From NCBI GenBank assembly GCA_943333505.2, contig CALQTN020000009.1:1-64000 (forward strand): 64,000 nt of DNA. The letters run 5' to 3'. The DNA comes from Asaia bogorensis (lineage in GTDB: Bacteria; Pseudomonadota; Alphaproteobacteria; Acetobacterales; Acetobacteraceae). The position numbers and the translations under genes were made by a program. The notes under the pieces were generated by a model that saw only the letters and a list, made by a program, of their open reading frames with translations, was not told the origin of the DNA and did not search any database. Shown here one piece after another: positions 5,164-9,862 of this stretch (the first letter of the stretch is position 1; each line of letters begins with the position of its first letter).

Positions 5164-5493
5164 TCAGCGTTCCTCGTCGTTGCTTTCAACTTCAACCTCG
5201 ACGATCGCCTCGGCTTCGTCTTCAAGGTCGGAGGTATCTTCGAGCACGTCCTCATCCGCGTCGTCCTCGGCCACTTCGACCTCGACATCCGCATCTTCGA
5301 GGCCGGGCACGACGGCCGCTTTCGGGCGGCGTTTCTCGTCCATCAGATTGCCGATCGGACGGCGAATGCGCGGCTGTTCGGCCGGCTGTTCGGTGTCGCA
5401 TTTCGGGCAGACCGCGGGCTGGCGGGTCAGGTCGTAAAAGCGGGCGGCGCACGATACGCAGATGCGCTTGGTGCCGAGTTCGGGCTTGGCCAT
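5164..5493 (-). CDS. FYDLN-acid family protein (TIGR02300-type)
   Basis: A 109-residue protein. The N-terminal half has two CxxC pairs (CVSC and CPKC) flanking the FYDL signature and probably forms a zinc ribbon. The C-terminal half is a low-complexity, strongly acidic tail of Glu and Asp runs. The family is confined to alphaproteobacteria and lies beside aroA/cmk, as here. Its function has not been established. The start is set at MAKPELGT; the upstream extension in the frame has unrelated composition. It is divergent from the AroA-Cmk gene, with 155 bp between them. Confidence 0.88.
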   Translation of the reverse strand: MAKPELGTKRICVSCAARFYDLTRQPAVCPKCDTEQPAEQPRIRRPIGNLMDEKRRPKAAVVPGLEDADVEVEVAEDDADEDVLEDTSDLEDEAEAIVEVEVESNDEER

Positions 5494-5648
5494 GGATCGC
5501 CTCACGACTGGAACAAAAAAAGAGAGAGCCGACCACCAAGGCGGCGCGGGATTTGTATAGAGGGCGCGCCCCATGCCACCGCCACAGGCCGATGTCAAAT
5601 TTTATCACCGGATTTCTATCGGGCGCGGCATCATGTTAGGTGTCCCGC

Positions 5649-6962
5649 ATGCCCAAATCCGCTCCTCCGCCGCCGGTCTATCCCAATGTTGCTGCCAGTT
5701 GGGTGCTGCTCTGCGCCGGGCTCGCGATCGGGGAAAGCCGGATCAGCGGTCTTGGCACGGGTGTGGACGCGGTTGGGCTGATCGCGGCGCTCCGTTCGCT
5801 TGGCGCCAGTGCACGCCAGGAAGCGGATGGCAGCTGGGTCATCGCCGGGCAGGGCGTGGGCGCGCTCACTGAACCGGCTGGCGTGATCGCGGTCGGCGGG
5901 GATCGCTGGCAGCTTGCGGCCCTGGCTGGATTGCTGGGCAGCCATCCGGTATTCGCGGTGCTGGCAGGGTCGGCCGGTGCCGCCAATGACCTCCCACTGG
6001 TGCTGCGCGCCTTGGGCGCCCGGGTGCAGCAACCTGCGTCTGGCGGGATGCCGCTTGCCATTGCCGGGGCGCGCGATGCGGTGCCGATTGAAATATCGCT
6101 CGCCACCGGCGAGGCCGACACTGCAGTGACGGCGTTGGTCGCCGGACTGAACGCGCGCGGGATAACCCGCATCGCCTTTGCCGGGGATGACCTGCCTTGC
6201 CGATTTGCACAGGGCATCGCCGTGCTTCGCCGGTTCGGTGCCGAGATTTCCGACACGATCGAGGATGGTCACCGGATCATTCGGTTGCGGGGCCAACCTG
6301 ACCTGCGGTGCCAGGACATCGCCATCGCGGTACCGTTGGTCATCGCGGTTGATGGTCCGGCAGCAGCCGGGAAGGGCACTTTGGCCCGCCGGCTGGCGAT
6401 CGAGTTCGGGCTGCCTTATCTCGATACCGGCCTGTTGTATCGTGCGGTGGCACGACTGGTAATTGATACTGGCGGCGATCCTGCTGATCCGGCGGCGGCA
6501 ATCGCGGCGGTGCGACGTTTGCGCCCCGAAGATACTGGCCGGGGTGATTTACGCGGCCCGCCGGTCGATGGGGCGGCAAGCCGGGTTGCGGCGCATCCCG
6601 ACGTGCGGGCCGCGTTGCTCGATTTTCAGCGGGCATTCGCCCACGCCAAAGGCGGCGTGCTGGATGGCCGTGATATTGGCACGGTGATTTTCCCCGATGC
6701 GCCGATCAAGTTCTTCGTGACCGCCAGCACCGCTGCACGCGGCCGGCGGCGTTGGCTCGAACTGGTGGGGCGCGGCGTTGCCGCCGACATTGATGCAGTG
6801 ACCGACGATCTGCGGCAGCGCGATGTCGCAGATGCGGCGCGGGCGGCGGCGCCGATGGTGGCGGCCGCCGATGCGATCGCGCTTGATACGACCGATATTG
6901 ATGCCGAGGCGGCTTTCGCGGTGGCTGTCGATCGGGTGCGCGCACGCTTGGCGCAGCGCTAA
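5649..6962 (+). CDS. cmk: Degenerate AroA N-terminal domain fused to cytidylate kinase
   Basis: A 437-residue fusion. Residues about 229-437 form a complete cytidylate kinase (CMP/dCMP plus ATP): P-loop GPAAAGKGT, YLDTGLLYR, DGRDIGT, and lid region near RRRWLEL. Residues 1-228 align with the first half of 5-enolpyruvylshikimate-3-phosphate synthase (AroA), for example GVGALTEPA, LRALGA and AGLNARG, but every catalytic motif I expect is gone: no PGDKS-type start (YPNVAAS instead), no NSGT (VGGDRW instead), no SAQVKSA. The second AroA half is missing. So this part is very unlikely to be an EPSP synthase, while the kinase looks intact. ATG 5649 is chosen; a GTG at 5640 would add three residues. 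The gene sits directly before rpsA, as cmk usually does. Confidence 0.88.
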   Translation: MPKSAPPPPVYPNVAASWVLLCAGLAIGESRISGLGTGVDAVGLIAALRSLGASARQEADGSWVIAGQGVGALTEPAGVIAVGGDRWQLAALAGLLGSHPVFAVLAGSAGAANDLPLVLRALGARVQQPASGGMPLAIAGARDAVPIEISLATGEADTAVTALVAGLNARGITRIAFAGDDLPCRFAQGIAVLRRFGAEISDTIEDGHRIIRLRGQPDLRCQDIAIAVPLVIAVDGPAAAGKGTLARRLAIEFGLPYLDTGLLYRAVARLVIDTGGDPADPAAAIAAVRRLRPEDTGRGDLRGPPVDGAASRVAAHPDVRAALLDFQRAFAHAKGGVLDGRDIGTVIFPDAPIKFFVTASTAARGRRRWLELVGRGVAADIDAVTDDLRQRDVADAARAAAPMVAAADAIALDTTDIDAEAAFAVAVDRVRARLAQR

Positions 6963-7188: not shown

Positions 7189-8898
7189 ATGGCATCAGCC
7201 GCAGATTCCCTCGACCTCGAAAATGATTTCGCCGCCCTCCTCGATGAGACCCTCGGCCGGGATACCGGCTTTGAAGGCTCCGTCGTCACCGGGCGGGTGA
7301 TCCGCCTCACCGAAGAATTCGCCATCGTCGATGTCGGCCTGAAGAGCGAAGGGCGCGTGGCGCTCAAGGAATTCGCGCTTCCCGGCATGGCCCCGGAAGT
7401 AAAGCCCGGCGACAACGTCGAACTTTATGTTGAACGCTACGAGGATCGCGATGGCGCCATTGTGCTGTCGCGTGAAAAGGCTCGCCGCGAGGAAGCCTGG
7501 ACCGCGCTGGAAAAGGCGTTCGAAGCCCAGACACGCGTTAACGGCGTGATCTACGGTCGGGTCAAGGGCGGCTTCACCGTCGATCTCGGCGGCGCCGTGG
7601 CCTTCCTGCCAGGCAGCCAGGTCGATATCCGCCCGGTTCGCGACGTCGGCCCCCTGATGGGCCAGCCGCAGCCGTTCCAGATCCTCAAGATGGATCGCGC
7701 CCGTGGCAACATCGTGGTCTCGCGCCGCGCCGTGCTCGAAGAAACCCGCGCCGAACAGCGCAGCGAACTGATCCAGGGCCTGAAAGAAGGCATGATCCTC
7801 GACGGCGTGGTCAAGAACATCACCGATTACGGTGCGTTCGTCGATCTCGGCGGCGTGGACGGCTTGCTGCATGTCACCGACATCGCGTGGCGCCGGATCA
7901 ACCATCCGTCCGAAGCCTTGCAGATCGGCATGCCGGTCAAGGTGCAGGTCATTCGCTTCAATTCGGACACCCAGCGCATCAGCCTCGGCATGAAGCAGCT
8001 GGAAGCCGATCCCTGGGAAGGCGTGACCGCGAAATATCCGCCCGGCGCCAAGCATTCCGGCCGCGTCACCAACATCACCGATTACGGCGCCTTCGTGGAG
8101 CTGGAACCCGGCGTCGAAGGCCTGGTGCACGTCTCGGAAATGTCGTGGACCAAAAAGAACGTCCATCCCGGCAAGATCGTCGCCACCAGCCAGGAGGTCG
8201 AGGTTCTTGTGCTCGACGTCGACAGCTCGAAGCGTCGCATTTCGCTCGGCATCAAGCAGGTTCAGCGCAACCCGTGGGAAGAGTTCGTCGAGGCCCATCC
8301 GATTGGATCGGAAGTCGAAGGCGAAATCCGCAACATGACCGAATTCGGCCTGTTTATCGGCCTGTCGGACGATATCGACGGCATGGTCCACATGTCCGAT
8401 CTGTCATGGGACGAACCCGGCGAACTCGCGATGGCGAAGTTCGACAAAGCCCAGATGATCACCGCCAAGGTGCTCGATGTCGATGTCGAGAAAGAACGCA
8501 TCAGCCTCGGCATCAAGCAGCTGCGTGATGACCCGGCGGCGAGTGTGCTCGACCGGATCAAGAAGGGCGAGATCGTCACCTGTGTCGTGACCGCTGTTCA
8601 GTCCAATGGCATTGAAGTGAAGGTCGATGACGTGCTGACCGGCTTCATCCGCCGCGCTGAACTGGCGCGCGACAAGGGCGACCAGCGTCCGGATCGCTTC
8701 GCGATCGGCGAGAAAGTGGATGCGCGGGTTACCGCCATCGACCGCGCTGCCCGCAAGCTCCAGCTCACGATTAAGGGCAAGGAGATCGAGGAAGACAAGC
8801 AGGCGATCGCTGAATTCGGCACGTCCGATAGTGGCGCGTCGCTGGGCGATATCCTGGGTGCCGCGATCCGTCGCCGCAACCTGAACCTGCCGGAGTAG
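7189..8898 (+). CDS. rpsA: 30S ribosomal protein S1
   Basis: A 569-residue protein made of six S1 (OB-fold) repeats. The repeat signature ITDYGAFV/NMTEFGLF followed by a DGL(V/L)H(V/M)S(D/E)(I/M)SW-type strand recurs through the middle, and each repeat ends in RISLG(I/M)KQ. S1 binds mRNA and assists its loading on the 30S subunit. The start is uncertain: ATG 7189 (MASAADSL) gives the usual S1 N-terminus, but an in-frame ATG at 7135 has a far better ribosome site (AAGGAG, 8 bases away) and would add 18 residues. The gene lies between cmk and an S49 peptidase in the standard alphaproteobacterial order. Confidence 0.97.
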   Translation: MASAADSLDLENDFAALLDETLGRDTGFEGSVVTGRVIRLTEEFAIVDVGLKSEGRVALKEFALPGMAPEVKPGDNVELYVERYEDRDGAIVLSREKARREEAWTALEKAFEAQTRVNGVIYGRVKGGFTVDLGGAVAFLPGSQVDIRPVRDVGPLMGQPQPFQILKMDRARGNIVVSRRAVLEETRAEQRSELIQGLKEGMILDGVVKNITDYGAFVDLGGVDGLLHVTDIAWRRINHPSEALQIGMPVKVQVIRFNSDTQRISLGMKQLEADPWEGVTAKYPPGAKHSGRVTNITDYGAFVELEPGVEGLVHVSEMSWTKKNVHPGKIVATSQEVEVLVLDVDSSKRRISLGIKQVQRNPWEEFVEAHPIGSEVEGEIRNMTEFGLFIGLSDDIDGMVHMSDLSWDEPGELAMAKFDKAQMITAKVLDVDVEKERISLGIKQLRDDPAASVLDRIKKGEIVTCVVTAVQSNGIEVKVDDVLTGFIRRAELARDKGDQRPDRFAIGEKVDARVTAIDRAARKLQLTIKGKEIEEDKQAIAEFGTSDSGASLGDILGAAIRRRNLNLPE

Positions 8899-8917: not shown

Positions 8918-9862
8918 ATGACCCTCGAAACTGATCTGCTGATCGACAGGCGGCGCCTCAAGCGCCGCCTGTTTGTCTGGCGGGTGATCGCGATTGTCGC
9001 GGTTATCGCCTGTGTCGGCGTGGCGTTCCGCTTGGGCGGCGGTGGGAGTATCGCCGGGATTGCCGGCGCGGGCAGCCACATCGCGCGGGTGCGGATTACC
9101 GGCGTGATCGAAGATAATCGCAAACTGATTGAGGCGATTGCGGCGGTCGGCAAGGACGATACGGTGCGTGCGCTGATCGTCGCCATCAACAGCCCCGGTG
9201 GGACGGTGGGTGGCAGTGAAGCGCTCTATATTGCGATTAGCGAGGTTGCTGCGAAGAAGCCTGTGGTCGCGGTGATGGGGAGCGTTGCCGCGTCGGGCGG
9301 CTATATGGCAGCGATTGCTGCCCCGCGGATTTTTGCGCGTGAATCGACGATTACCGGCTCGATTGGGGTGTTGCTGTCGAATTTTGAGGTTTCTGGTCTG
9401 CTCGGCAAGATTGGTATTGGGACTGAAACCCTGACTTCGGGGCCGTTGAAAGCCCAGCCGAGTTCGACCAGTCCGTTGACCGGGCCGGGCCGGACGGTGT
9501 TGCAGGCGCTGGTAATGGATATGTATGACCAGTTCGTGGAGAAAGTGGCGCTCGGCCGCAAGATGGATGTGCAGAAAATCCGCGAACTGGCGGATGGCCG
9601 GATTTATACCGGGCGGCAGGCCCTGCGTGTTGGCCTGATCGATGCCATTGGCGGCGAAACCGAAGCGCGCGCCTGGCTGGTGACCGAACGTGGTATCGCT
9701 GCTGGTTTGCCGGTTCGCGACGCTGACACGAAAAGCAAATTTGAAGCCGTGTTTGGTGAGACCGCAGACGAGTTCTTTGGTGATGTCCTGAAAACGTTGT
9801 TTTCTCAACGCGTTAAGCTTGACGGCGCCGTGGCCCTGTGGCAACCTTTCGATACAAACTAA
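8918..9862 (+). CDS. sppA: S49-family signal peptide peptidase (SppA-like), membrane anchored
   Basis: A 314-residue protein with one N-terminal transmembrane segment (about residues 19-38), leaving a periplasmic protease domain. The Ser-Lys dyad of short SppA enzymes is visible: Ser126 in VAASGGY and Lys178 in SGPLKAQPS; NSPGG (91-95) shapes the active site. It degrades cleaved signal peptides and other membrane peptides. The single-domain length matches SppA from Gram-positives and alphaproteobacteria rather than the 600-residue E. coli type. It begins 20 bp after rpsA. Confidence 0.88.
   Translation: MTLETDLLIDRRRLKRRLFVWRVIAIVAVIACVGVAFRLGGGGSIAGIAGAGSHIARVRITGVIEDNRKLIEAIAAVGKDDTVRALIVAINSPGGTVGGSEALYIAISEVAAKKPVVAVMGSVAASGGYMAAIAAPRIFARESTITGSIGVLLSNFEVSGLLGKIGIGTETLTSGPLKAQPSSTSPLTGPGRTVLQALVMDMYDQFVEKVALGRKMDVQKIRELADGRIYTGRQALRVGLIDAIGGETEARAWLVTERGIAAGLPVRDADTKSKFEAVFGETADEFFGDVLKTLFSQRVKLDGAVALWQPFDTN

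Follow-up and report, generated by a model that had tools for sequence, protein, structure and literature searches.

A predicted dead EPSP-synthase domain fused to cytidylate kinase in Asaia bogorensis, one stage of a recurrent aroA decay in relatives with a second AroA

Introduction

According to one review, the genes for EPSP synthase, cytidylate kinase and ribosomal protein S1 stand in a uniform order, aroF-cmk-rpsA, in the alpha-proteobacteria, aroF being the name of the EPSP-synthase gene in that source (PMC1173090). In the window analysed here, a stretch of 64,000 nucleotides from Asaia bogorensis (contig CALQTN020000009.1), one open reading frame joins a piece of EPSP synthase (AroA) to a cytidylate kinase (Cmk). 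What is left of the EPSP synthase, how did it come to be joined to an essential enzyme, and in what role has it been kept? A sequence-only reading of the window had taken the locus for a fusion of genes after partial deletion of aroA. Judging by alignments and by the comparison with relatives described below, the break follows a domain boundary of EPSP synthase, and the fusion is an end point of a graded decay in relatives that carry a second AroA.

The fused gene and its parts

On the forward strand, no stop codon interrupts the 440 codons of the reading frame at 5640-6962. The likely start of the fusion is the ATG at 5649, which would give a product of 437 amino acids. Among the four N-terminal start candidates it has the strongest anti-SD duplex (-6.3 kcal/mol), with a candidate ribosome-binding site, AGGTG, at 5638..5642 (+), six bases upstream. 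The gene for ribosomal protein S1 (rpsA), recognised by its S1 domains, follows at 7189..8898 (+). The divergent neighbour at 5164..5598 (-), taken from the list of open reading frames, encodes a small acidic protein, presumably TIGR02300; relatives have a stop within the upstream part of this frame, which probably puts the true start near 5493.

The first part of the fusion product, encoded at 5649..6338 (+), is by Pfam and NCBIfam matches and by alignment a catalytically dead EPSP-synthase domain II. As the proposed partial deletion of aroA implied, only the counterpart of about residues 21-241 of E. coli AroA remains, so that the two globular domains expected of an EPSP synthase are not both present. 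Pfam EPSP_synthase matches the first 233 amino acids (E 1.7e-9; 37.3 bits, cut-off 22.8; profile positions 23-214 of 417). The aroA model TIGR01356 matches the N-terminal part over profile positions 15-222 of 415 (E 6.9e-11), with 41.6 bits against an equivalog cut-off of 287.25, which places this part outside AroA as the model defines it. The second part, encoded at 6339..6962 (+), with the core VIAVDGP... and the stop codon at 6960-6962, scores 151.4 bits with TIGR00017, above the equivalog cut-off of 135.55, and is predicted to be a complete cytidylate kinase; the earlier view of an in-frame fusion to an intact neighbouring cmk thus stands. A search at E 1e-10 found no other Cmk match in the same genome.

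Misassembly is ruled out as the origin of the fusion, which is present in four of the five genomes of the window's genus (its own, G000, together with G001, G004 and, up to the end of a contig, G003) and in one genome of another genus. A structure prediction, built on two sequences only, gave a pLDDT of 35.3 and a pTM of 0.22, too low to be of use.

Lost active site and retained domain boundary

The window domain was aligned with E. coli AroA, eight intact native AroAs, decayed copies and the second AroA (AroA2). All scores out of 21 given here refer to a list of E. coli AroA residues which we take to be those of the active site. None of these 21 catalytic or ligand-binding positions matches in the window domain, within which 13 of them fall; the loss of catalytic motifs noticed at first sight is therefore complete by this measure. 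The same E. coli positions match at 16 of 21 in each of the eight intact native AroAs and at 20 of 21 in AroA2. Measured against residues invariant in the eight native enzymes, the domain keeps one of 11 active-site positions, an alanine at E. coli position 170. The invariant positions of domain II as a whole are kept unevenly: 20 of 25 glycines and prolines, 28 of 57 hydrophobic residues and 6 of 25 charged ones.

The window domain ends at E. coli position 241, and the ends of the truncated copies fall at 237-250. Residues 25-240 of the E. coli enzyme have been solved as a separate domain of 216 residues (1p88), and the 228-residue chain of 3ti2 matches 16-242. The break at position 241, together with the domain solved alone in 1p88, suggests that the remnant amounts to about one self-folding globular domain. 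In the alignment, both fused lineages have also lost part of the short N-terminal piece of domain I. We take structures 2gg4 and 2pqb to be the CP4 (class II) enzyme.

A second AroA and the decay of the native gene

A complete aroA had been expected elsewhere in the genome, and the genome search found one on contig C53 (L005:5789-7066). Its product, AroA2, is an intact and distinct AroA with 342.7 bits, above the equivalog cut-off, and aromatic auxotrophy of the strain need not be invoked. MurA is encoded on contig C8 of the same genome. At E 1e-45, 31 of 397 genomes of the family carry AroA2, in 11 of 102 genera; in a class-wide sample at E 1e-100 it was found in 9 of 385 genomes, the window's own and eight from other families. 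A quick tree of 37 of 38 AroA2 loci (G144 was left out, and the partial AroA2 of G231 has no locus), in which several forks are weak, has members of other families interspersed among those of the family, a pattern that fits horizontal transfer. The active-site residues of AroA2 are E. coli-like, its distribution over several families is patchy, and most of the carriers show an associated loss of the native AroA. The fused genome G004 stands apart, since AroA2 was not found in its draft assembly. Five genomes of 91-98% completeness (G004, G006, G071, G033 and G143) have no match above the aroA cut-off, which may reflect either draft gaps or aromatic auxotrophs.

The 31 carriers of the family fall into a graded series by the state of the native, cmk-linked aroA. 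It is intact by its residues in two (G255, G367). In 12 it is full-length and dead by its residues, with 2 to 7 of the 21 left (G002, G021, G129, G134, G135, G185, G220, G260, G292, G384, G392, G404), and in six it is trimmed to domain II, with 0 or 1 of 21 (G000, G001, G003, G015, G264, G335). No native copy was detected in ten (G005, G101, G114, G144, G169, G215, G251, G318, G398, G410), in five of which (G005, G101, G114, G215, G318) the DNA upstream of cmk was searched additionally. The remaining one, G231, is fragmented and falls into none of these groups. In this comparison of genomes, the window fusion appears as one stage of a recurrent decay in relatives with a second AroA. A frameshift parting an intact aroA from cmk was not seen in those cmk loci of relatives that were read.

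Eight carriers belong to other families. Next to its cmk, G670 encodes an intact native AroA; at the corresponding place, G747 has a full-length copy with changed motifs (206.1 bits). These two are congeners in another family, both with AroA2, and their loci (L188 and L187) have an identical TGATG junction to cmk. In G664, also from another family, a 266-aa open frame away from cmk (G664:C13:199461-200009) matches aroA profile positions 15-203 only, with 38 bits, and is perhaps another stand-alone dead domain II.

Probable recurrence of the fusion

The whole fused protein was searched against the 397 family genomes; 244 had a match, and conclusions are drawn from the stronger matches listed. 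Among these, the matches spanning both parts are those in G000, G001, G004 and G264, and in G003 up to the contig end. Fusion to Cmk is thus found in at least two genera among the matches listed, and a very divergent fusion could escape such a search.

Within the window's genus, loci L037 (G001) and L039 (G003) are near-identical outside the fusion, with dS of 0.20 in rlmN, 0.17 in the next gene and 0.17 in AroA2. Their fused domains are strongly diverged (dS 2.15), and the Cmk of G001 groups with that of G004 (L040; support 100/94). Taken together, the similar flanks and AroA2, the divergent domain and the Cmk grouping suggest an exchange of the domain-cmk segment by recombination.

It seems that a second, separate joining to Cmk took place in the other genus. 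In a Cmk tree, built without G003 and G134 because their Cmk is cut, G264 groups with G022, which is intact (99/98), and the unfused G002 groups with the window's genus (99/99); AU tests on this tree reject monophyly both of the four fused Cmks (p 0.017) and of the six truncated loci it contains (p 0.0003). The opposing idea, that truncation and fusion happened once and were afterwards passed among genera by gene transfer, can draw on the apparent recombination among congeners and on the domain-II tree, whose branches are very long and in which one clade of seven truncated copies is not rejected (AU p 0.259). Parsimony nevertheless asks for more than one change on either tree, four on the Cmk tree and three on the domain tree, and together with the placements of G264 and the window's genus this makes a single event improbable.

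The junction with cmk

In seven of the eight intact loci of the family (the exception being G016), the aroA stop and the cmk start share four bases, ATGA. A four-base overlap, once with GTGA in place of ATGA, is retained in nine of the 12 full-length dead loci. Ancestrally, then, the two genes share four nucleotides, and cmk was probably translationally coupled to aroA. Such stop/start overlaps are reported to couple the translation of the two genes, with coupling almost lost at gaps of about 20 nt and the final 15 nt of the upstream gene sufficient for it (PMC10666635). The dead copy is separated from cmk by 66-67 nt in G129, G185 and G260, by 106 nt in G015 and by 21 nt in G335. Gaps of 66-106 nt are too long for coupling and the dead copies are still kept, so coupling can be only part of the story.

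Some fusions may retain traces of a separate Cmk start. At the junction of L040 (G004), near 9469-9486, GCATGA is kept, likely as a fossil of the former four-base overlap, with an in-frame ATG five codons 5' of the Cmk core. In G264 a GTG 21 codons before the core is a candidate, supported by a strong anti-SD duplex; in G000 a weak TTG lies immediately 5' of the core. Cmk might therefore be started inside the fusion in G004, G264 and G000.

Selection on the remnant

About 690 bp without a stop had been read as a sign of retention. The length is correct, and it is weak evidence taken alone in GC-rich DNA: in 200 neutral runs, the open frame survived in 3% to 33% for full-length copies and in 44.5% for the domain length (at 79% identity, with zero stops). 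Since open frames are this frequent under neutrality, the case is carried by conservation and dN/dS.

These measures do support retention under selection. By a codon model, dN/dS of the fused domain is 0.108-0.222 in four of six pairs, G000-G004 and G003-G004 being left out of this range since the fit hit its time bound; 40 neutral simulations in which stops were forbidden gave 0.78-1.68. G000-G003 (dN/dS 0.222, dS 0.61) is the sole fused pair with dS below 1, and the dN/dS of the other pairs is rough. A counting method applied to all six pairs gave 0.15-0.25, with 0.17 for G000-G004 and 0.15 for G003-G004. The fused domains are under purifying selection. Other genes of G000-G003 are held more tightly than the domain (AroA2 0.075, rlmN 0.036), and in G000-G001 Cmk stands at 0.132 against 0.156 for the domain.

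Constraint is graded within the domain and reaches the unfused copies. In G000-G003, core-like positions have 0.119 and the rest 0.373; of the nine pairs compared, made up of fused and of dead copies, seven have the lower value at core-like positions, and the order is reversed in G004-G001 and G021-G135. For full-length dead copies, the codon model gives 0.14-0.29 where the dS of the pair is under 2.5. A counting method that leaves codon bias uncorrected gives 0.56-0.85 for the dead copies of group g119, 0.40-0.75 for those of g17, and 0.13-0.65 for intact pairs. Constraint on the remnants is relaxed yet present.

Likeness to known fusions

The nearest parallel is the TyrA-AroF fusion of Pseudomonas syringae, in which the EPSP-synthase domain lacks about 200 N-terminal residues and a transferred stand-alone EPSP synthase is present; the authors of that account raised the possibility of the remnant turning into a regulatory domain (PMC1173090). 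As in the window, a dead EPSP-synthase part sits in a fusion, the partner is kept and a second EPSP synthase is encoded elsewhere. The likeness is one of kind only and not of common descent: P. syringae lost N-terminal residues, has TyrA as partner and had the fusion first, whereas the window fusion keeps the N-terminal domain, has Cmk as partner and seems to have formed after decay, as part of a recurrent, graded series.

Bifunctional AroA/Cmk proteins (NF008816, PRK11860) have AroA before Cmk in one chain, as here, with the difference that AroA in NF008816 is full-length and the window domain is half-length and dead; the fusion reaches 167.7 of the 943 bits set as cut-off, and nearly all of this score comes from its Cmk part. 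Cmk also shares a chain with a different protein in pantoate--beta-alanine ligase/Cmk (NF010004) and Cmk/GTPase Der (NF007071), where the partners are working enzymes going by the model names, and the window fusion is below the cut-off of both. In the open-access literature, with subscription journals mostly outside, we found neither a description of an AroA-Cmk remnant nor one of a dead EPSP synthase encoded ahead of cmk. What is known, then, is full-length AroA/Cmk fusions and the P. syringae remnant; what differs here is the opposite half of the enzyme, the Cmk partner and the recurrence in a graded series.

The living relatives form a natural series in which a redundant enzyme tied to an essential neighbour can be seen intact, dead at full length, reduced to one domain and fused. 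Such a series makes it testable whether dead domains on essential enzymes persist from the need to fold or gain a role. It also carries a warning for annotation, since the working AroA may be encoded elsewhere and the aroA next to cmk be dead.

Origin and present role of the remnant

We favour an account in which AroA2 would have made the native AroA redundant. Given that an essential gene, cmk, had its start overlapping the stop of aroA, presumably with coupling by termination and reinitiation, only in-frame decay would have been tolerated. Deletions that left one self-folding domain would have survived, some of them placing the domain in frame with Cmk; after such a fusion the domain would have to keep folding, as the essential kinase would otherwise be harmed. 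Today it would serve Cmk chiefly as a leader for structure or expression and would neither catalyse a reaction nor bind shikimate. The story of origin (replacement by AroA2, in-frame decay, trimming and fusion) is very probably right; to the whole account, including a foldable leader with no new specific function, we give a probability of roughly 0.55. Among the roles suggested at the outset, retention for folding or structure fits better, regulation is possible, and the least likely is that the remnant senses a shikimate-like ligand, because the contacts to shikimate-3-phosphate are gone. Several observations weigh against this account. Retention is not obligatory, given the 10 of 31 carriers without a detected native copy; G129, G185, G260 and G015 hold a dead copy despite their 66-106 nt gaps; and fused G004 has no detected AroA2. 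Cmk is possibly started internally in three fusions, and most dN/dS values of fused pairs are rough, with dS below 1 in G000-G003 only. Finally, there is room for a specific role, because non-core positions are constrained too, in two of the nine pairs more so than the core.

How much of the sequence itself matters separates the two other readings of the remnant's persistence. If coupling or fusion merely kept the frame open, the amino-acid sequence would be free to drift; the overlap in most full-length dead loci, the 15 nt reported to suffice for coupling (PMC10666635) and the high counting values of the dead copies would all agree with this. Those uncorrected values, however, reach 0.65 even in intact pairs, the codon model puts dead copies below 1 as well, decoupled loci retain the remnant too, and the frame-only idea is already disfavoured by fused-domain dN/dS far under the neutral simulations; we hold it to be very improbable. 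A stronger claim on the sequence is that the dead half became a dedicated N-terminal docking or control domain of Cmk, probably twice, its former active-site face rebuilt as a hydrophobic surface that would pack on the kinase and tune its activity or oligomeric state. This would make a worn-out neighbour into a working part of an essential enzyme, and we regard it as a tentative proposal, doubtful beside the foldable leader. In its favour, constraint extends beyond core-like positions, and at 33 positions the four fused congeners all have the same residue, derived with respect to the consensus of intact copies, including tryptophans at former R27 and T97; position R27 is large and hydrophobic (Trp, Phe, Leu, Phe) across the four truncated lineages. 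Against it, the change of R27 to Trp is found as well in G002, whose dead copy is full-length and unfused, and is hence older than the fusion, and the Trp at T97 is absent from G264.
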